22,542 bases of DNA. Origin: a virus. Below are positions 3,851 through 22,542 of the stretch, one piece after another. The stretch covers positions 1 through 22,542 of the IMG/VR virus record IMGVR_UViG_3300047284_000560; one strand, written 5' to 3'. The notes under the pieces were generated by a model that did no database searches, was not told the DNA's origin, and worked only from the letters and a program-made list of their open reading frames with translations. Position 1 is the first letter of the stretch. Each line of letters begins with the position of its first letter. Position numbers and translations under genes: made by a program.

Positions 3851-4135
3851 ATGAAGCCAATCTTCGAGGTGCCTAGCGCAAGTTACAAGGCAACCAAAAC
3901 CCTGATCGCCAATCGCATTAAAGAAGCGCGGTTGAATTCAGGCTTGAGACAAGAGGAAGTGGCCAGAGAGCTAAATATCAGTCAAAGCTCCTACTCAAGA
4001 ATGGAAAAAGGCGTGCTCACTCCCGACTGTGCGCAGATAAGAGTGTTGAGCGGACTTTACAACATTTCCATTTTGTGGCTGCTTGGCATGCCCAACTTCC
4101 TTGTCTACGCTCAGTCCTCGTCGTCTTCGCCTTGA
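3851..4135 (+). CDS. XRE-family helix-turn-helix regulator
   Basis: 94 residues. Residues about 20-75 are a classic Cro/CI-type HTH: 'IANRIKEARLNSGLRQEEVARELNISQSSYSRMEKG' followed by 'LTPDCAQIRVLSGLYNISILWLLGMP'. The recognition helix is 'SQSSYSRMEKG'. There is no peptidase or dimerisation domain beyond the HTH, so it is a small Cro-like or antitoxin-like regulator. It is the only plus-strand gene within the minus-strand structural block. Its 5' side is divergent from the protease-scaffold gene and its 3' end overlaps the convergent gene ending at 4111 by 25 bases. It probably binds its own 53-base upstream region and tunes head-gene expression, which is an inference. No cognate toxin gene is seen. 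Confidence 0.85.
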   Translation: MKPIFEVPSASYKATKTLIANRIKEARLNSGLRQEEVARELNISQSSYSRMEKGVLTPDCAQIRVLSGLYNISILWLLGMPNFLVYAQSSSSSP

Positions 4136-4422
4136 ATGGCGCGAATCTGGTCTTCTACGCCTTCCATGATGTAAGCCTTGGCGATTGCCTCGGCCTCGAA
4201 AGTGAGCATTTTTACTGGCTCAAAATACTCATCAGGCTTTTCATAGAAGCTCTCGACGAAAATGTGAGTTTCATCAAGTCGCCCATTCTTGAAATGCTGT
4301 CGCTCAGTCAAGCGCCAGTGCGAAGTATTTCGATGTTCGTGAGCTGAAAGAATGGCCAAAGCCTTCATCACGCCAATGCCATCTTCTTCGTCCTCTTCAA
4401 TGACGCGCACGTATTCGCTCAT
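4111..4422 (-). CDS. Acidic protein of unknown function
   Basis: 103 residues, MSEYVRVIEEDEEDGIGVMKAL, ending 'QIRAIQGEDDED'. Both ends are strongly acidic. The middle ('HRNTSHWRLTERQHFKNGRLDETHIFVESFYEKPDEYFEPVKMLTFEAEAIAKAY') looks like a compact folded domain. It has no motif I recognise. Its ATG overlaps the TGA of the upstream DUF6321-like ORF (ATGA). Its 3' end runs 25 bases into the opposite-strand XRE gene, so the two transcripts are convergent and overlapping. The phage-like overlap pattern and sensible composition support a real gene. Confidence 0.65.
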   Translation of the reverse strand: MSEYVRVIEEDEEDGIGVMKALAILSAHEHRNTSHWRLTERQHFKNGRLDETHIFVESFYEKPDEYFEPVKMLTFEAEAIAKAYIMEGVEDQIRAIQGEDDED

Positions 4423-4796
4423 TGATCCTTCTTGCGGCTTTCCACCATGTTAATAATGCGATTGGCCCACGCCCTGCCAGCGGCTCCGCCCCACAATTGA
4501 CCCGCTATAAACCCCGCGTCGTCTTCTCCGCCAGACAAATTCTTGGCATGGCGCGAGAAGAAAGCCGCCATGCGCTTGATGGTTTTATAGCTCACGGCCT
4601 CCCCATTGGCCAGGCTTGTAGCGCGAGCCACTCCACTGCCAATGCCCTGTTTGCCGGCCTCCTGCGTGGTCAGACCGCCTTTGCCATACTTCTTGCGCAG
4701 TTCAAGGCCGCGACGCGCTGCAGACCGAACAGACGATGGAGGGGAGAACGATTCAGCGTCCCCCCTCAGGACTTTCCCACTGAGTCTTCCATGCAA
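4419..4796 (-). CDS. DUF6321-like domain, probably made as a -1 frameshift fusion
   Basis: The open frame encodes 'SAARRGLELRKKYGKGGLTTQEAGKQGIGSGVARATSLANGEAVSYKTIKRMAAFFSRHAKN...', ending in 'AAGRAWANRIINMVE'. This is the pattern of the small basic DUF6321 domain found in phage and large-virus proteins. The frame has no ATG near its 5' end; the only usable starts are weak (TTG at 4796). Instead it is entered in the -1 frame from the upstream DUF6496-like gene at a G GGA AAG heptamer (4778-4772). Joined product: about 202 residues, of which 85 come from the upstream frame. Function is unknown; nucleic-acid binding would fit the basic composition but is inference. Confidence 0.75.
   Translation of the reverse strand: MHGRLSGKVLRGDAESFSPPSSVRSAARRGLELRKKYGKGGLTTQEAGKQGIGSGVARATSLANGEAVSYKTIKRMAAFFSRHAKNLSGGEDDAGFIAGQLWGGAAGRAWANRIINMVESRKKDQ
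4741..4778 (-). promoter_or_regulatory. Programmed -1 ribosomal frameshift signal (G GGA AAG + stem-loop)
   Basis: In the frame of the DUF6496-like gene the codons read GTG GGA AAG TCC TGA. G GGA AAG (4778-4772) is the X XXY YYZ heptamer used by the lambda G/GT genes. Six bases after it, GGGGGGACG (4765-4757) pairs with CGTTCTCCCC (4750-4741) around a six-base loop, with one bulged T and one G-T pair. A slip of -1 just before the TGA gives GGG AAA GTC CTG AGG, exactly the frame of the downstream DUF6321-like ORF. Heptamer, frame, spacer and stem all fit. Confidence 0.8.
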
Positions 4797-5026
4797 CCAT
4801 CTTCCTCTTCCATTGCTTCTTCTTCTTGAAGCACTTGCCGAATGAATGCACGCATGTACTCCTCGCTGGCATCTTTCTTTTTCATGGTCATACCAGCCTC
4901 AGACAATGCAATTGCAACTGCCTGTTTGTAATTGGTGATTGGCTGTCCGCTGCTGCTTTTCAAGGTGCCAGCCTTGAATTCTTTCATGACTTTGGAGATT
5001 TTTGCTTGCTTTTGCTTCTTAGTCAT
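4766..5026 (-). CDS. DUF6496-like small basic protein (zero-frame product of the frameshift pair)
   Basis: 86 residues from the ATG at 5026: 'MTKKQKQAKISKVMKEFKAGTL', then 'KSSSGQPITNYKQAVAIALSEAG', then an acidic tail ending 'MEDSVGKS'. The 'KVM.EFK.G.L.S.SG..ITN.KQA.AIALSEA' pattern is that of DUF6496, a short lysine-rich domain of unknown function common in phages and large viruses. An in-frame ATG at 5059 lies inside the end of glf and would add 11 residues; the 5026 start is preferred because it clears the glf stop. The last codons carry the frameshift heptamer, so the ribosome makes either this short protein or the DUF6496-DUF6321 fusion. Confidence 0.75.
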   Translation of the reverse strand: MTKKQKQAKISKVMKEFKAGTLKSSSGQPITNYKQAVAIALSEAGMTMKKKDASEEYMRAFIRQVLQEEEAMEEEDGCMEDSVGKS

Positions 5027-5039
5027 GGTCAGAACAGTC

Positions 5040-6167
5040 TTATTCCACCATCGTAGCATTTGCTTTTTGCCATGTTCGCCATTTGTTCATGGCGCTTTCA
5101 ATGACAACATGCATATCCATGTATTTGTATTCGGCAAGTCTTCCACCAAAAATAACGCCCCTCTCCTCTTTTGCTAATTCTTGATACTGACGATGAATCG
5201 AAAGATTGTCTTCAGTGGCGATGGGGTAGTAGGGAGTGTCTCCCGGTTCGCATTCTCTAGGGGTCTCTTTGGTGACGATCGTTACAGCACTCTTCGTCTC
5301 ATTGAAGTGCCTGTGCTCTATTCGACGAGTAAATGGCACCTTCACGGATGGAAAGTTGATAACGGCATTTCCCTGATAATTTGCACAATCTATTGTGCGA
5401 TGCGCAAAGTCAAGCGTGCGATAATTTAGCCGTCCAAGCTTGTAGCCAAAAAATTCGTCGATGCACCCTGTGTACACAATGTATTTACTTTGATCCCTCC
5501 AAAAACTACGAGCAGCCAAAAAATCAGTATTAAGCACTGTTTCGATGCCGTTAAGCATGTGTTCAAACATGCAAGTGTATCCTTCTGTGGGTATGCCTTG
5601 GTATTTATCGTTGAAATAATTACTATCAAAAGTGAAGCGCAACGGCAAACGCTTGATGATTGATGGCGGCAAATCAACAGCCTCTCTTCCCCATTGTTTT
5701 TCAGTGTAGCCTTTGATCAGCTTTTCATAAATGCTTCGACCAACCATTGACAGCGCTTGCTCTTCGAGATTGGTTGGCACTCCCTTCCATCGTTCTTTTT
5801 CGATCATTTGCATTGCATCATCGGGACTGATTACCGCTGGCCCCCATAACTCATGAAACGTATTCATTGAGAACGGAAGTGAATACAATTTTCCGTCTAC
5901 AAAGGCCTTGGGAGAGTTGACAAAGCTATTAAAGCGTGCAAATTGATTGACAAATTGCCAAACCGTTTCGTTGCTTGTGTGGAAAATATGAGGACCGTAC
6001 AAATGCACGTCAATGCCTTCCCTGTTCTCGGTGTAGCAATTGCCTCCTATGTGCTTTCTTCGATCAATAACCAAGCAGCGATGGCCAGCATTGGTGGCAA
6101 GGCGGGCAAAGACTGCCCCAAACATGCCACTTCCGACAATCAAGAAATCATACTTTGGGCTTGACAC
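5040..6167 (-). CDS. glf: UDP-galactopyranose mutase
   Basis: 375 residues, the usual length. This flavoenzyme interconverts UDP-galactopyranose and UDP-galactofuranose, the donor for Galf residues. Visible: the N-terminal dinucleotide-binding loop 'FLIVGSGMFGAVFARLA' (8-24), 'VIDRRKHIGGNCYTE', 'YGPHIFHTSNE' (active-site histidine loop), 'LPFSMNTF', 'LIKGYTEKQWG', 'DEFFGYKLGRLNYRTLDF', 'IEHRHF' and the C-terminal 'DTPYYPI...' with 'IFGGRLAEYKYMDM'. All the motifs that contact FAD and substrate in bacterial Glf are present, so it should be active. Its start lies 20 bases inside the methyltransferase gene. It is the last gene of the sugar cassette and is followed by small head-region genes. Confidence 0.95.
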   Translation of the reverse strand: MSSPKYDFLIVGSGMFGAVFARLATNAGHRCLVIDRRKHIGGNCYTENREGIDVHLYGPHIFHTSNETVWQFVNQFARFNSFVNSPKAFVDGKLYSLPFSMNTFHELWGPAVISPDDAMQMIEKERWKGVPTNLEEQALSMVGRSIYEKLIKGYTEKQWGREAVDLPPSIIKRLPLRFTFDSNYFNDKYQGIPTEGYTCMFEHMLNGIETVLNTDFLAARSFWRDQSKYIVYTGCIDEFFGYKLGRLNYRTLDFAHRTIDCANYQGNAVINFPSVKVPFTRRIEHRHFNETKSAVTIVTKETPRECEPGDTPYYPIATEDNLSIHRQYQELAKEERGVIFGGRLAEYKYMDMHVVIESAMNKWRTWQKANATMVE

Positions 6168-9453: not shown

Positions 9454-10131
9454 TCAAACGGGCACCGTTGCTGGCTGCTGCTTGAAATAACGCACTGAAC
9501 AGCGACACCTGGCTCCGCATTCACAGCGCTGCCCAGGCAAGGGAAGGGTGCCAATGGAGACCATTCCTTGGGCTGCATATCGAAGACAATCTGCGCAATG
9601 CTGGGCCTGGCTGTCCAGAATGCGTCTCATGAGACCGTATCCTTGTTGCTGCTGCCGAAGTTCGGCTCCTTGCCAGTAAGATCCGCGAACGCTTTGAGCA
9701 TATAGGCCAATGCGAGCCAAAGCCATGGGAGCAGAAATGCGATTGCCAAGCAAATCGGCGGCAAAACCTTGGAGATAAGCATATTCTTCACGAAGCCGCT
9801 GGCCGATGCGACCATATTCTGCACTGCCCATGCCGGCTCGACCGCCATAGCCAATAATTGCTGTCTGAATATGAGCACCCTTAAGCGATTCGCGGACACT
9901 CCCTTGCCATTGGTCAAGCGTAATGGCTCCATCGATCAACATGCGCGTATAGCGCCGCAGGCTTGCTTCCAGCTTATCAATACGCTTATCAACAAGCTTT
10001 TCAATGGCTTCTTTGCTTAAAAATCGTCCTTTTTCGTCTCGATACCGGCCGCTTTTCTGGTCATAAGACCATTCGGCGTCCATGCGAGCAGAGAGGACTG
10101 CCTCCGCAAAAGTGGCAAGATCATTCAGCAT
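9454..10131 (-). CDS. Minor head protein with C-terminal cysteine cluster (MuF-like)
   Basis: 225 residues from the ATG at 10131, overlapping the portal stop by 11 bases. An N-terminal helical part ('ATFAEAVLSARMDAEWSYDQKSGRYRDEKGRFLSKEAIEKLVDKRIDKLEASLRRYTRMLIDG') leads to 'GRIGQRLREEYAYLQGFAADLLG'. The C-terminal 'HCADCLRYAAQGMVSIGTLPLPGQRCECGARCRCSVRY' has the CxxC ... CxCxxxCxC arrangement that ends many phage head-morphogenesis proteins next to the portal. These are internal or portal-associated proteins; the cysteines may bind zinc. Portal followed by minor head protein is the expected order. Homology to Mu gpF proper is weak. Confidence 0.7.
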   Translation of the reverse strand: MLNDLATFAEAVLSARMDAEWSYDQKSGRYRDEKGRFLSKEAIEKLVDKRIDKLEASLRRYTRMLIDGAITLDQWQGSVRESLKGAHIQTAIIGYGGRAGMGSAEYGRIGQRLREEYAYLQGFAADLLGNRISAPMALARIGLYAQSVRGSYWQGAELRQQQQGYGLMRRILDSQAQHCADCLRYAAQGMVSIGTLPLPGQRCECGARCRCSVRYFKQQPATVPV

Positions 10132-12169
10132 TGTCAGCTTCCAGCAGATCCTTAAAGCGCTCTGGGGCTTCTTCTTTCCATTGCTGCAGCGCTGCATCAA
10201 CGTCTGCCTCGCTAATAAAAGCAGCCTCGTCAACGTTGCCCAACAGAAGACCTTCCACCTTCACTGGCTCAATGGCATCTACCTTGCTGCTTACCATCTT
10301 GGCGGCTCCCTTTCGTTCTGGATCGGGGTCGGCTTTTCGCTTGCGGGCGACAATGGTCTGCCGTTCTTCTTTGCTCATGGCCTCCGCCTTTGCCCTGGGC
10401 AGGCACTTGGGCTTCCCTTCTTTTTCTTTCCGACCTCCGCATTCACCAAGGATTTCTCCGTTGGCGCCAATCCTCACCCATTCTTCTTTGAACCATTTGT
10501 CAAGATCGTCATAATTGACATCACCATCGTCCCCCTTGAAACCGCTACCACTGCCATGCTTTTTTGCATAGAGATCTTTATACCTTTGAACCATGTAGGC
10601 ACTGGCGTAAGCACTAGGCCATACTTTGAATTTTGATTTTGCGGCTGCAATGGCTTGCTGGTGAAGATCTTTATCCTTGAACTGAACATCGCCCCTAGCT
10701 TTTTCGAGATCGCGAGGCAAGAATAGTCCCGCAGAATCCTCGACTTCCCTGCTTCCGTCCATAGGAAGAGTGCCGTTTTCTTCATTGAGAGGATCGCGAC
10801 CACCAGGGGGCACCTTCATCTCTCCTTTTTGTTGCGGCAATTCGCGCACTACTGTCGGGTCGAGAGTCAGCTCCATTGACCACTCAGAGCCGCCGTAGCG
10901 GGCGTCGGCCACCTCTTTAGGACTTAGTACGCCAAGTTGGATGTAACGCCCGTCAACGGCCGCCACGCGAGCCCGAACGTCGGCTTTCTCTCTTTCATTC
11001 AGCTCGAACAAGTCGTTGAATTTAATGCGCCACGATTCCGGCACTCGTCCATTCGTTGGTCCAGTCTTGCTAAGCATGATGTAGGTCATCAGCTTTTTGA
11101 GAGGACGATGGAAGGTGGACTGTTGGTAGTCGGCTAGCGTCTTGGCGAAATCCCTCTCCTCGCTTCGTCCAGTGGAACCAAGGCCGCTGGGGCTTTCGCC
11201 AAACAGCACGGTGTGCGGAATCTTCGAGGCGCCAATAATATCTACCCTCATCTTCTCGAGGATTTCTCCCACTCCGCCAAAGTTTCTACTGATAAACGCG
11301 AGCTCTTCTTTTTCTGCATCAATTGCATAGCCACGATAAACACTTTTGCTCATGTCATTGAGCACCAAGCGATCACGTACGTCTTTTTCTTTTCCCGCTG
11401 CAAGCATTTGCGCTAGTCCGCGAATCTTGTGGACAAAAATATCAAACTCGCTCAACAAAGTAGCTGCGCTGTTCAGACCAGTCCAATAATGCTTAAAGCT
11501 TTCGTAAACAGTTTGCAAACTGCTCATTCCCCACCCATAGTTCCTCTGCCGAATGCGATAGGGAAGCCAATCGCCGTCGAAGCGTAAAATTCTATCTTTA
11601 TGGATGTAAGTTAATTGCGGCTGGCGAATAAGATCGCCTGAAATGATTTGATAGTAAGTCGCCCTAGAGTAGTCGTATAGATTTTCTTCGTTAATCACTG
11701 GCGCAATTTGCCAGCGATCAAGAACTTCCATGCCTTCCACCGCATAAATGCGGCTCTTGTCAACTGGCTGATCTGCCGGCCTGCCATCATCAATGTAAAG
11801 AAGAATAACCGCGCCTCCGTAAAGTCTGGAATTCTTGGAAGCAAGCATAAAGTTTTCAAGGATGTACAAATCCTCGATCACTTGCTCAATACCTACCACT
11901 TCTTCTGCTGCTGCCCCTTCTCCGCCAAAAAGTACTTTGAAGCCTTTGCGAGTGGCTTGTTCTGCATAAATATCTACAATGCGACGCGGAAGCCATTCGC
12001 CATACAGGGCCTCCAGCTCCTCTTGTGCCAGAAAAACAATTGGCTGCGCTTGAGTGTGAAGGCTTTTGTCCCTGCCGGGATACCCCATGCCGGTGAGGGC
12101 ATTGGCAAGGCCATCGGAGCGAATTCCTTCTGCGGTGGCGTGCCCGAGGTTGACAGTTTCTTCCGACAT
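10121..12169 (-). CDS. Portal protein (DUF1073-like) with C-terminal DUF5872-like domain
   Basis: 682 residues. Residues about 30-470 match the DUF1073 portal group: 'LAQEELEALYGEWLPRRIVDIYAEQATRKGFKV', 'SRLYGGAVILLYIDDG', 'DRWQIAP', 'RILRFDGDWLP', 'ISRNFGGVGEILEKMRVDIIGASKIPHTVLFGESPSGLGSTG...R.F'. Portals form the dodecameric DNA gate of the head. Residues about 525-640 are an added domain: 'AAAKSKFKVWPSAYASAYMVQRYKDLY', 'LDKWFKEEWVRIG', 'CGGRKEKEGKPKCLPRAKAEAMSKEERQ'. This is the DUF5872 pattern, a lysine-rich domain of unknown role seen in phage and large-virus proteins. The last 50 residues are an acidic helix. The gene diverges from the packaging genes. Confidence 0.85.
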   Translation of the reverse strand: MSEETVNLGHATAEGIRSDGLANALTGMGYPGRDKSLHTQAQPIVFLAQEELEALYGEWLPRRIVDIYAEQATRKGFKVLFGGEGAAAEEVVGIEQVIEDLYILENFMLASKNSRLYGGAVILLYIDDGRPADQPVDKSRIYAVEGMEVLDRWQIAPVINEENLYDYSRATYYQIISGDLIRQPQLTYIHKDRILRFDGDWLPYRIRQRNYGWGMSSLQTVYESFKHYWTGLNSAATLLSEFDIFVHKIRGLAQMLAAGKEKDVRDRLVLNDMSKSVYRGYAIDAEKEELAFISRNFGGVGEILEKMRVDIIGASKIPHTVLFGESPSGLGSTGRSEERDFAKTLADYQQSTFHRPLKKLMTYIMLSKTGPTNGRVPESWRIKFNDLFELNEREKADVRARVAAVDGRYIQLGVLSPKEVADARYGGSEWSMELTLDPTVVRELPQQKGEMKVPPGGRDPLNEENGTLPMDGSREVEDSAGLFLPRDLEKARGDVQFKDKDLHQQAIAAAKSKFKVWPSAYASAYMVQRYKDLYAKKHGSGSGFKGDDGDVNYDDLDKWFKEEWVRIGANGEILGECGGRKEKEGKPKCLPRAKAEAMSKEERQTIVARKRKADPDPERKGAAKMVSSKVDAIEPVKVEGLLLGNVDEAAFISEADVDAALQQWKEEAPERFKDLLEADNAE

Positions 12170-14699: not shown

Positions 14700-15153
14700 C
14701 TTGCAAAGCTTCCTGCAGGAGCCCGTTGGCCAACGGCTTGCCAGTATCCTCGTCAATGCTGGCACCATCGTGGATTCCGTTCACTGTCTTAAGTGAGTTG
14801 AAGCACTTAAGGCGCTTGGCAGAATGTCAGGGCCGCACCCTGTTTGTTTCCTAATGCGGAAACATTCTGCCGCTTGTCTCTTCTGGTGATGAAAGCTGGT
14901 TCGATTCCAGCGTGAGGCGTGATAAGCTAAAGATACGTTTACCCTGCGAAGGGTGCATGCAAGCCATCCAGGAAACGGGGGATGGGGACCATGGAGGAAC
15001 GGTCATGAACAAGCTCATGCTTGTGAAGCTGCAGCTCCTGAAGGCCGCAAGGCTTCATCAGGCGCAGTTGGCTTCAGTTTACGGCTACCGCCCTTGTGTA
15101 GCCTGAAGGCTACATCCAGCCGCCTTTGTCAATTTGACAGGGGCGGTATTTTT
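14700..15153 (+). ncRNA. Candidate large structured noncoding RNA, ending in an intrinsic terminator
   Basis: The plus strand is covered with helices: CCGTTGG/CCAACGG (14723-14736); TGCCAG/CTGGCA (14739-14764); a 10-bp stem 14786-14795/14804-14813; a three-way junction closed by GGCAGAAT/ATTCTGCC (14818-14871) holding CAGGG/CCCTG and GTTTCC/GGAAAC; a tRNA-type T-arm (14895-14911); ACCCT-GCGA-AGGGT with a GNRA loop (14941-14954); ACAAGC/GCTTGT (15009-15024); a GCAA-capped hairpin (15037-15062); TGTAGCC/GGCTACA (15097-15114). It ends in the terminator at 15120-15153. GNRA loops and the T-loop exist only on this strand. This recalls the ornate phage RNAs (GOLLD, ROOL) found near tRNA genes, but no homology is claimed. 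Confidence 0.55.
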
Positions 15154-16522: not shown

Positions 16523-16567
16523 AAGAGAGCTGAGGCAAGCCCCAGTTTACTACGGTTCAATGGAAAG

Positions 16568-16635
16568 GGCTCTTCCAGGAATCGAACCCGGCATTCTGGG
16601 CTATCGGCCCAACGTGTATCCAACACCAAAGAGCA
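16568..16635 (-). tRNA. tRNA-like element (Ile-GAU-like), degenerate
   Basis: Reads as a 68-base cloverleaf: acceptor TGCTCTT/AAGAGCC (6 of 7 paired, first pair mismatched), D-stem GTGT/ACAC with only a five-base loop, anticodon stem TTGGG/CCCAG with loop CCGATAG (GAT in the anticodon position), T-arm CCGGG-TTCGATT-CCTGG fully paired. Position 33 is C instead of the near-universal T. A 5-bp TGGGC/GCCCA alternative would shrink the loop to five bases. It may be a decayed tRNA or a tRNA-mimic in a larger RNA. Confidence 0.4.
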
Positions 16636-20936: not shown

Positions 20937-21011
20937 CTCCTTACCACCTTCCTTTCAATTATTTCTTTTCCGACAGTAGTTTGATCGCCCATGGTGTGCG
21001 CAGCTACCGCC

Positions 21012-21050
21012 AGTCTCATTTAAGACTAGTTTGAGACAATATTGAGACTA
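21012..21050. repeat. Cluster 2 of TGAGACT operator/iteron-like repeats
   Basis: AGTCTCA (21012), AAGACTA (21022), TTGAGAC (21031) and TTGAGACT (21042). The order and starting block AGTCTCATT match cluster 1, about 400 bases away. The two clusters flank hairpin copies 1 and 2, with copy 3 abutting cluster 2. Two equal clusters could be bridged by one protein, forming a loop. Confidence 0.6.
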
Positions 21051-21105
21051 AAGAAGGGGCACGAACAACGCCGCTTGGGGCGGCTCCTGAACATAGCCCC
21101 TTCTT
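21051..21105. repeat. Hairpin repeat copy 3, diverged and inverted core
   Basis: Outer stem AAGAAGGGGC/GCCCCTTCTT (10 perfect pairs). Inside: ACGAACAAC, then GCCGCTTGGGGCGGC (inner hairpin GCCGC/GCGGC), then TCCTGAACATA. The core TTGGGG is the reverse complement of CCCCAA in copies 1 and 2, while the flanking ACGAAC and TA-stem junction have the same orientation. Confidence 0.6.
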
Positions 21106-21412
21106 CTCACAATCTCATGCTTGGGAACAATCTTAGTGCGCTCACTCCCTCTCGTAAGTTTTAGATCGTTCGCGCAGTGCGCACTGGCTTTCGTCCATGG
21201 AAAATAAACAAAAAGAATGTAGCGCGGTGAACAAAAGCAAAAAAGTGGTTTGAAAATGCCGCACCTCCAAAAAGGGGATACCCCGCCCCAGCTCACGCCC
21301 ATACCCCCTGCTACTGCTCCCTGTCTGTATCCGTTGCTACTGTTTGCCGGATTGGTGAGATTAGGAATGCTAATCCCGAGCTCAAATGTAGGGATTGTCT
21401 CCCCCCACAGCC

Positions 21413-21442
21413 AATAGAAAGGCCCCACCTATTGGCAGGGCC
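21413..21442 (-). terminator. Intrinsic terminator after the Gp88-like gene
   Basis: On the minus strand GGCCCTGCC pairs with GGTGGGGCC (two G-T pairs) around AATA, followed by TTTCTATT. It lies 27 bases after the stop at 21469. A second, weaker GGGG-TAT-CCCC TTTTT element follows at about 21269-21284. Confidence 0.65.
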
Positions 21443-21468
21443 ATTGGCCAGGGGCAGCCTGAGGCCCT

Positions 21469-22542
21469 TTATCGGCCCCATGGCTGGCTGCGCAGCATGG
21501 CCCGACCCCCGCCGGCCAGGGGCTGCCATGCATCCAGAACAGGGGCGAGGCTGAATGCGTCAGCAGCGGGGCCCCTGCCCCTGCTGCGTTTTGTGCGCAG
21601 GATGACAGCCACGCCATCACACCCGCCGGCCAGGCCAGGGCCTGCAGGATCGGCCCATCGATGATCGGTGGTATCCCCATCGATGCAGGCCAGATCAATG
21701 GCCAGGGGGCCCCTTTCTAGGATCAGCACGGCGGGCAGGGGCTGGCCTTTGGGCAGGGCCACGGGCACGGCCAGCCTGAAGCCGGCCTCAGCGGCCCGAA
21801 TAGCTTCTAGAACGCCATGAGGCCGATCAGCAGCCAGAGAGGCTGTCACGTCCCATCCTGCCGATCGCTGGGCCTGCAGGCCCAGGGGGCCGGTTACAGG
21901 GGCCTTTGAATACTCATACAGTCTGACGCTGCCTGCAGGGGCCAGGGCCAGGGCCTCTGCCATGGTGATTCCCTGGCCAGGGGCCACGGGCAGCCCGTAA
22001 CGTCGGGCCAGGGCCTGAGCCTCAGCAGCGCTAACGCTGAAGCGTTCTAGGTGCCAGGCATGATCATCGGTGCCCCTGAGCCTGACAGCCAGGGGCAGCC
22101 CCTTGGCCTGAGCCTGTCGGTAGGCCCGTGCAATGGCCCATAGGACAGCACGAGCATAGACAGGGCCCCCGGCCAGCATGGCCAGGGTGCGGCGGGCACG
22201 GGCAGCCGCAACGGTCACACTGAGGCCCCCGTGGCCTGCCCAGGCCAGGCAGCCAGCAGCGCAGCCAGCAGAGGCCCAGGGGCAGCCATTGTGAGCCATG
22301 GCCAGGGCCAGTGTGTCAGTGCTGCGGGCCAGATCAGCCAGGCCAGGGATGCGAGACCGGGGGGCAGTGCTGCCTGCCTCAGGCCCTGCAATGGCAGCAG
22401 CCAGGGCCTTTGCGGGCAGGTGATGCAGAATCACAGGCCAGGCCAGGGCTGCCCCCTTGGCAAGTTTGGCATTTGAGGCCCCTACTGTCAGCAGCCCGTC
22501 GAGGCTGAGGCTGAACCGTTGCAGCAGGGCTGCCACGTCAGC
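21469..22542 (-). CDS. Gp88-like protein, probably partial at the right edge
   Basis: At least 355 residues from a GTG at 22536; the frame is open to the window edge, so the true start may lie beyond. 'LLTVGASNAKLAKGAALAWPVILHHLPA' and 'NGCPWASAGCAAGCLAWAGHGG' are the marks of Gp88-domain proteins, a phage/plasmid family of unknown function with an 'NAK..KG' start and a CPxAS..C...C cysteine cluster that may bind a metal. 'VRLYEYSKAP' and 'ADRPHGVLEAIRAAEAGFRLAVPV' also follow the family. The gene is strikingly GC- and Ala-rich, using GCC, CTG and GGG codons almost alone, unlike the rest of the window. It ends at a TAA followed by a terminator. Confidence 0.75.
   Translation of the reverse strand, partial: ADVAALLQRFSLSLDGLLTVGASNAKLAKGAALAWPVILHHLPAKALAAAIAGPEAGSTAPRSRIPGLADLARSTDTLALAMAHNGCPWASAGCAAGCLAWAGHGGLSVTVAAARARRTLAMLAGGPVYARAVLWAIARAYRQAQAKGLPLAVRLRGTDDHAWHLERFSVSAAEAQALARRYGLPVAPGQGITMAEALALAPAGSVRLYEYSKAPVTGPLGLQAQRSAGWDVTASLAADRPHGVLEAIRAAEAGFRLAVPVALPKGQPLPAVLILERGPLAIDLACIDGDTTDHRWADPAGPGLAGGCDGVAVILRTKRSRGRGPAADAFSLAPVLDAWQPLAGGGRAMLRSQPWGR

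Follow-up and report, generated by a model that had tools for sequence, protein, structure and literature searches.

Results

A DUF6496 gene ends in a slippery sequence that opens onto a second frame

The window analysed here is a linear fragment of 22,542 bases, an IMG/VR viral record that includes genes for portal, terminase, head protease, cement and major head proteins. On its minus strand, a gene matching the DUF6496 profile (PF20106; 32.8 bits against a curated cut-off of 24) closes with ...GAC TCA GTG GGA AAG TCC TGA. We placed the start of this gene at the ATG at 5026, where the aligned homologues begin (MTKKxKQ); a second in-frame ATG lies upstream at 5059, and the frame is open from there as well. 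The features of the junction, all on the minus strand, are as follows.

4766-5026, minus: DUF6496 gene in the zero frame, 86 amino acids, ending ...DSVGKS-TGA; PF20106 match above cut-off, start from aligned homologues
4794-4796, minus: TTG in the -1 frame upstream of the second domain, a rival start codon that is not conserved; from the sequence and homologues
4772-4778 (read 4778 to 4772), minus: slippery heptamer G GGA AAG in zero-frame phase; from the sequence and from X XXA AAG in 88 of 88 split homologues
4767-4771, minus: spacer of 5 nt from heptamer to stem, constant in length in a gap-free alignment of 82 distinct junctions
4766-4768, minus: zero-frame stop TGA, one sense codon (TCC) past the heptamer; from the sequence and homologue junctions
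4740-4766, minus: predicted stimulatory stem-loop, 5' arm 4766-4759 and 3' arm 4747-4740; from folding, covariation and excess stability over synonymous shuffles
4419-4772, minus: continuation in the -1 frame with a phrog_2859-type domain, 117 residues after the slip, stop at 4421-4419; ORF and profile match
4111-4422, minus: next gene, 103 amino acids, phrog_37929, whose ATG overlaps the -1 frame stop as ATGA; ORF and profile match

A preliminary description of this sequence had proposed that the G GGA AAG in GTG GGA AAG TCC TGA, followed six bases later by a stem, shifts ribosomes into a downstream ORF that lacks an ATG, yielding a fusion of roughly 202 residues. The heptamer is indeed found at 4778-4772, and the -1 frame is the downstream ORF, open to 4419. 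The distance to the stem also holds: the first pair of the stem is an A-U pair whose A comes from the stop codon, giving a spacer of 5 nt if this pair is counted and 6 nt if one starts from the first G-C pair. The hairpin, 27-28 nt long, folds at -13.7 kcal/mol (z = -2.35 against shuffles). Starting from the ATG at 5026, the predicted products are a zero-frame protein of 86 residues and a transframe protein of 85 + 117 = 202 residues, matching the proposed length. No ATG precedes the second domain, as had been stated, though the TTG at 4796 had gone unmentioned.

Several other elements of the window lie away from this junction. The portal protein (10121-12169, minus strand) has a C-terminal DUF5872 domain. 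A match to the glutamine-II riboswitch (RF01704; 34.7 bits, gathering threshold 33) lies at 14933-14986 on the plus strand; this riboswitch class occurs in cyanobacteria and cyanophages. ARAGORN predicts a tRNA-Ile (GAT) of 68 bases at 16567-16634 on the minus strand. From 21001 to 22542 the GC content is about 0.60, compared with about 0.50 before, and this end of the record is possibly recombined or chimeric.

The heptamer is present in every split homologue

We collected homologues through four protein scans of IMG/VR and added the cultured Synechococcus phage S-CBS4, obtaining 126 non-redundant loci that carry the second domain; nearly all are metagenome assemblies, and counts of loci are phylogenetically non-independent. 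DUF6496 sits upstream in the -1 register in 88 of them and in one frame with the second domain in 28; in 3 the register deviates by one base, and 7 have no upstream DUF6496 match, several of these ending at a contig edge. Thus, where both domains are present in split form, the ORF coding for the downstream domain is in the -1 register in 88 of 91 loci. In the three others (L090, L194 and L223), the one-base difference may come from errors of assembly, or from real indels, which would contradict the scheme.

An in-frame X XXA AAG heptamer is found at all 88 split loci, as A AAA AAG (51), G GGA AAG (29) or C CCA AAG (8); we found no split homologue without one. It stands one codon before TGA or TAA in 83 loci (46, 29 and 8, respectively); in four others A AAA AAG directly precedes TAG, and in one (L242) A AAA AAG has a later stop. 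Among 82 distinct junctions, the X columns co-vary as a triplet (AAA 48, GGG 28, CCC 6) while AAAG is invariant, and parsimony on the domain tree counts 17 changes in the identity of X. We also scanned IMG/VR DNA with a pattern running from the stop codon over the downstream coding side only, leaving the heptamer unspecified. This unbiased scan returned at least 65 distinct junctions, at least 34 of them new, and X XXA AAG is present in all 65 among the matches listed. Across both sets, about 120 distinct junctions conserve this anatomy. The preliminary description had suggested asking whether heptamer, spacer and stem persist where silent positions change; they do, with the surrounding sequence varying as well, at 88 of 88 split loci and in the scan.

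Codon usage at the junction follows the same pattern. In the background, GGA makes up 21% of Gly codons, CCA 22% of Pro codons and AGG 12% of Arg codons; given these low shares elsewhere, the choice of GGA, CCA and AGG at the junction is fixed against background use. The Arg codon at the junction is AGG in 87 of 87 split loci, compared with 11 of 28 fused loci.

The cassette is present in a contig from a bacterial MAG (L321) and in S-CBS4 itself, where gp018/gp019 (NC_016766) form the same pair in the same neighbourhood, with A AAA AAG GGC TAA and a perfect outer hairpin. It does not extend to DUF6496 genes in general: in 37 DUF6496 loci lacking the second domain, no such heptamer is followed by a long -1 frame, so that we rejected frameshifting as a general DUF6496 trait. 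In one genome (L097, 3001-4200), a DUF6496 gene like that of the window has a different end (...EDSQIDL), with neither heptamer nor second domain, and the next gene follows directly. The cassette is conserved across many tailed phages that have the cultured marine cyanophage S-CBS4 among their relatives, and ribosomes almost certainly slip back by one base at this site in them. It is the comparison of homologues, and not the window sequence alone, that rules out chance.

A stem-loop is maintained where the frames are split and relaxed where they are fused

The outer eight pairs of the stem form in 90-100% of sequences and the inner two in only about half. One pair covaries across the 82 junctions (A-U 34, C-G 30, U-G 8, G-U 2, unpaired 8), linking the silent third base of a Gly codon with the first base of a Ser/Ala codon. 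The association is strong (Fisher 2e-16, with rows treated as independent though they are related) and specific to the position: doubly changed cells number 40 at the true partner, compared with 1-3 when the partner is slid by 1-3 columns. When restricted to strongly supported branches, five independent comparisons of this pair are left, of which about four agree and none opposes, a result that taken alone is not significant.

The 28 non-redundant loci that encode DUF6496, an acidic linker and the second domain in one frame, an arrangement that the preliminary description had proposed to look for, serve as a natural control because they encode a nearly identical peptide with no frameshift required. 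The mean free energy of the hairpin is -13.3 kcal/mol in split loci and -5.7 kcal/mol in fused loci, a gap of 7.6 kcal/mol (p = 3e-9). Measured against synonymous shuffles, the mean z-score of the stem is -3.2 in split loci; in fused loci it is -0.2, so that the RNA signal drops to chance level where the frames are fused, and the codon constraints are relaxed there too. These results argue that a stimulatory RNA structure downstream of the heptamer is under selection.

Split and fused forms interchange on the tree: irrespective of direction, parsimony counts 11 changes, at least 5 of them forced by strongly supported branches. One fusion (L203) corresponds to a similar split locus (L188) with one additional A and reads through the predicted transframe peptide, ...KKVDRGD; the extra A may be genuine or may stem from misassembly. 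Judging from the natural one-frame fusions, the joining of DUF6496 to the second domain is a real protein form.

An upstream Shine-Dalgarno-like element accompanies some heptamers

SD-like tetramers lie 6-16 nt upstream of the heptamer in 28 of 36 loci with the G or C type, compared with 14 of 50 with the A type; it looks as if this element helps the weaker heptamers, with linker composition and relatedness confounding the comparison. As so few of the A-type loci have one, we rejected the idea that all loci share an upstream Shine-Dalgarno stimulator.

A second domain that appears mobile among head-related proteins

The label DUF6496 given in the preliminary description stood; DUF6321, proposed for the second domain, did not. 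The second ORF of the window has no Pfam match at E <= 1 and matches phrog_2859 instead (1e-14), and DUF6321 is absent from the matches of its homologues; with no Pfam or NCBIfam match to support it, we rejected this identity. The domain is strongly conserved at the protein level. The structure predicted for one natural fusion (mean pLDDT 78) has two helical domains with a low-confidence linker between them. Over about 100-120 residues, the model matches predicted viral proteins that bear the names prohead protease, XkdF, portal protein, ParB/sulfiredoxin and Mu gp29-like. Among solved structures, it has no PDB match better than E = 3, and a PDB sequence search returned no relative. Since the second domain is carried by prohead proteases, portals and ParB-like proteins in other phages, it appears from these models to be a mobile domain attached to head-related proteins.

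Discussion

The junction is very probably a -1 programmed ribosomal frameshift cassette of the X XXY YYZ type, as the preliminary description had proposed from the window sequence. Most ribosomes would end translation of DUF6496 at the TGA, releasing the 86-residue protein. In a fraction of cases, the hairpin 5 nt ahead would hold the ribosome while its tRNAs occupy GGA and AAG, and these tRNAs would re-pair one base back in a tandem slip, GGA AAG to GGG AAA (in general, XXA AAG to XXX AAA). The slipped ribosomes would then enter the overlapping frame and make the 202-residue fusion of DUF6496, acidic linker and phrog_2859-type domain. Tandem slippage with a hairpin at this distance would explain every feature of the junction. 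C_CCA_AAG, G_GGA_AAG and A_AAA_AAG have been described as highly shift-prone in E. coli (PMC5009743); we infer that slippage also takes place in the host.

Other explanations account for less of what is seen. The second ORF could be a separate gene whose translation, by termination-reinitiation, is coupled to where DUF6496 ends and uses a non-ATG start in or close to the domain. GenBank starts S-CBS4 gp019 at an internal GTG. In the window, the TTG at 4796 follows a purine-rich stretch, making reinitiation conceivable for this genome taken by itself. Across the 88 split loci, however, ATG, GTG and TTG are absent before the conserved segment in 57, and even an extended set of near-cognate starts is absent in 17; the codon at which gp019 is started is GTG in only 21, and the earliest start-like codons that are well conserved, a GTG at codon 45 and an ATG at codon 65, are located far inside the domain. 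Reinitiation would also predict neither a fixed in-phase heptamer nor a covarying stem at fixed spacing, and we consider it very unlikely.

Still less probable is transcriptional slippage, in which RNA polymerase would stutter on a run of A to produce in-frame fusion mRNAs. The A AAA AAG loci do contain runs of at least six A, and L203 is the +1 A version at the level of DNA, but the heptamer at this place is G GGA AAG or C CCA AAG in 37 of 88 loci, with runs of only three, and the phase, like the 5-nt distance to an RNA hairpin, suits tandem slippage by the ribosome. Sequencing error or gene decay is the least credible reading: the three loci that are off by one base might be taken this way, whereas the identical register recurs across many samples, in 88 non-redundant loci that include the cultured phage S-CBS4 with its deposited genome, and decay is contradicted by the strong protein-level conservation of the second domain.

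Programmed frameshifting at this junction has parallels in known systems. As in lambda G/GT, a short ORF has G GGA AAG close to its end, where a -1 slip would extend the product at its C terminus. The lambda genes lie beside the tail tube and tape measure genes; the window pair instead lies between portal/glycosyltransferase genes and the head protease, with head protease, cement and major head proteins as neighbours. There is no homology to lambda G or T, only matches to DUF6496 and phrogs of unknown function, and the window family differs further in its conserved covarying hairpin and three interchangeable heptamers. E. coli dnaX and IS elements, whose genes are unrelated, share A AAA AAG with a hairpin a few nt downstream and sometimes an upstream SD-like element; here that element occurs mainly with the G and C heptamers, which may be a composition effect. 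The Ig-like extensions of T3 gp10, Lactobacillus phage A2 and Listeria phages (PMC5009743) likewise involve a promiscuous domain joined by frameshift or by in-frame fusion, depending on the phage. In contrast to these, the second domain here is predicted to be mostly helical, and its carrier, DUF6496, is no known coat or tail protein.

Although the slip mechanism is textbook, no DUF6496/phrog_2859-type pair was known to be linked to it. S-CBS4 gp018 and gp019 are annotated as two separate hypothetical proteins, with no frameshift. In the open-licence literature we found no text with DUF6496 and nothing on frameshifting at a gp018/gp019-type locus, an earlier mention being possible; the titles and abstracts of literature on S-CBS4 and frameshifting do not concern this locus, and the PRFect paper makes no mention of Synechococcus or cyanophage.

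The fusion may serve head assembly or packaging by giving some of the DUF6496 molecules a mobile, head-associated domain, a role suggested by domain company and gene position only. The frameshift might also reach the next gene. The stop of the -1 ORF overlaps the start of this gene in most split and fused homologues, mostly as ATGA, and an SD-like sequence precedes that start in 15 of 70 recognised split loci compared with 0 of 22 fused loci; in the window, AAGGA lies a few bases before the ATG. Given this overlap and the scarcity of SD-like sequences, translation of the second domain may be required to start the next gene. We therefore raise the possibility, tentatively and as the less probable case, that the frameshift sets two outputs, the DUF6496 fusion and a translationally coupled next gene reached mainly by slipped ribosomes. 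If true, the junction would be a translational gate in the phage head operon, one that the frame-fused lineages have dispensed with.

Few phage genes are expected to rely on -1 frameshifting, and this gene pair joins them with an unusually full set of natural controls: interchangeable heptamers of three kinds, a stem that covaries and fused relatives in which the stem signal is absent. Because S-CBS4 is cultured and its pair is annotated as two genes, the prediction is directly testable. For a helical head-associated domain, the cassette would parallel the frameshift-borne spread of Ig-like domains among phages.
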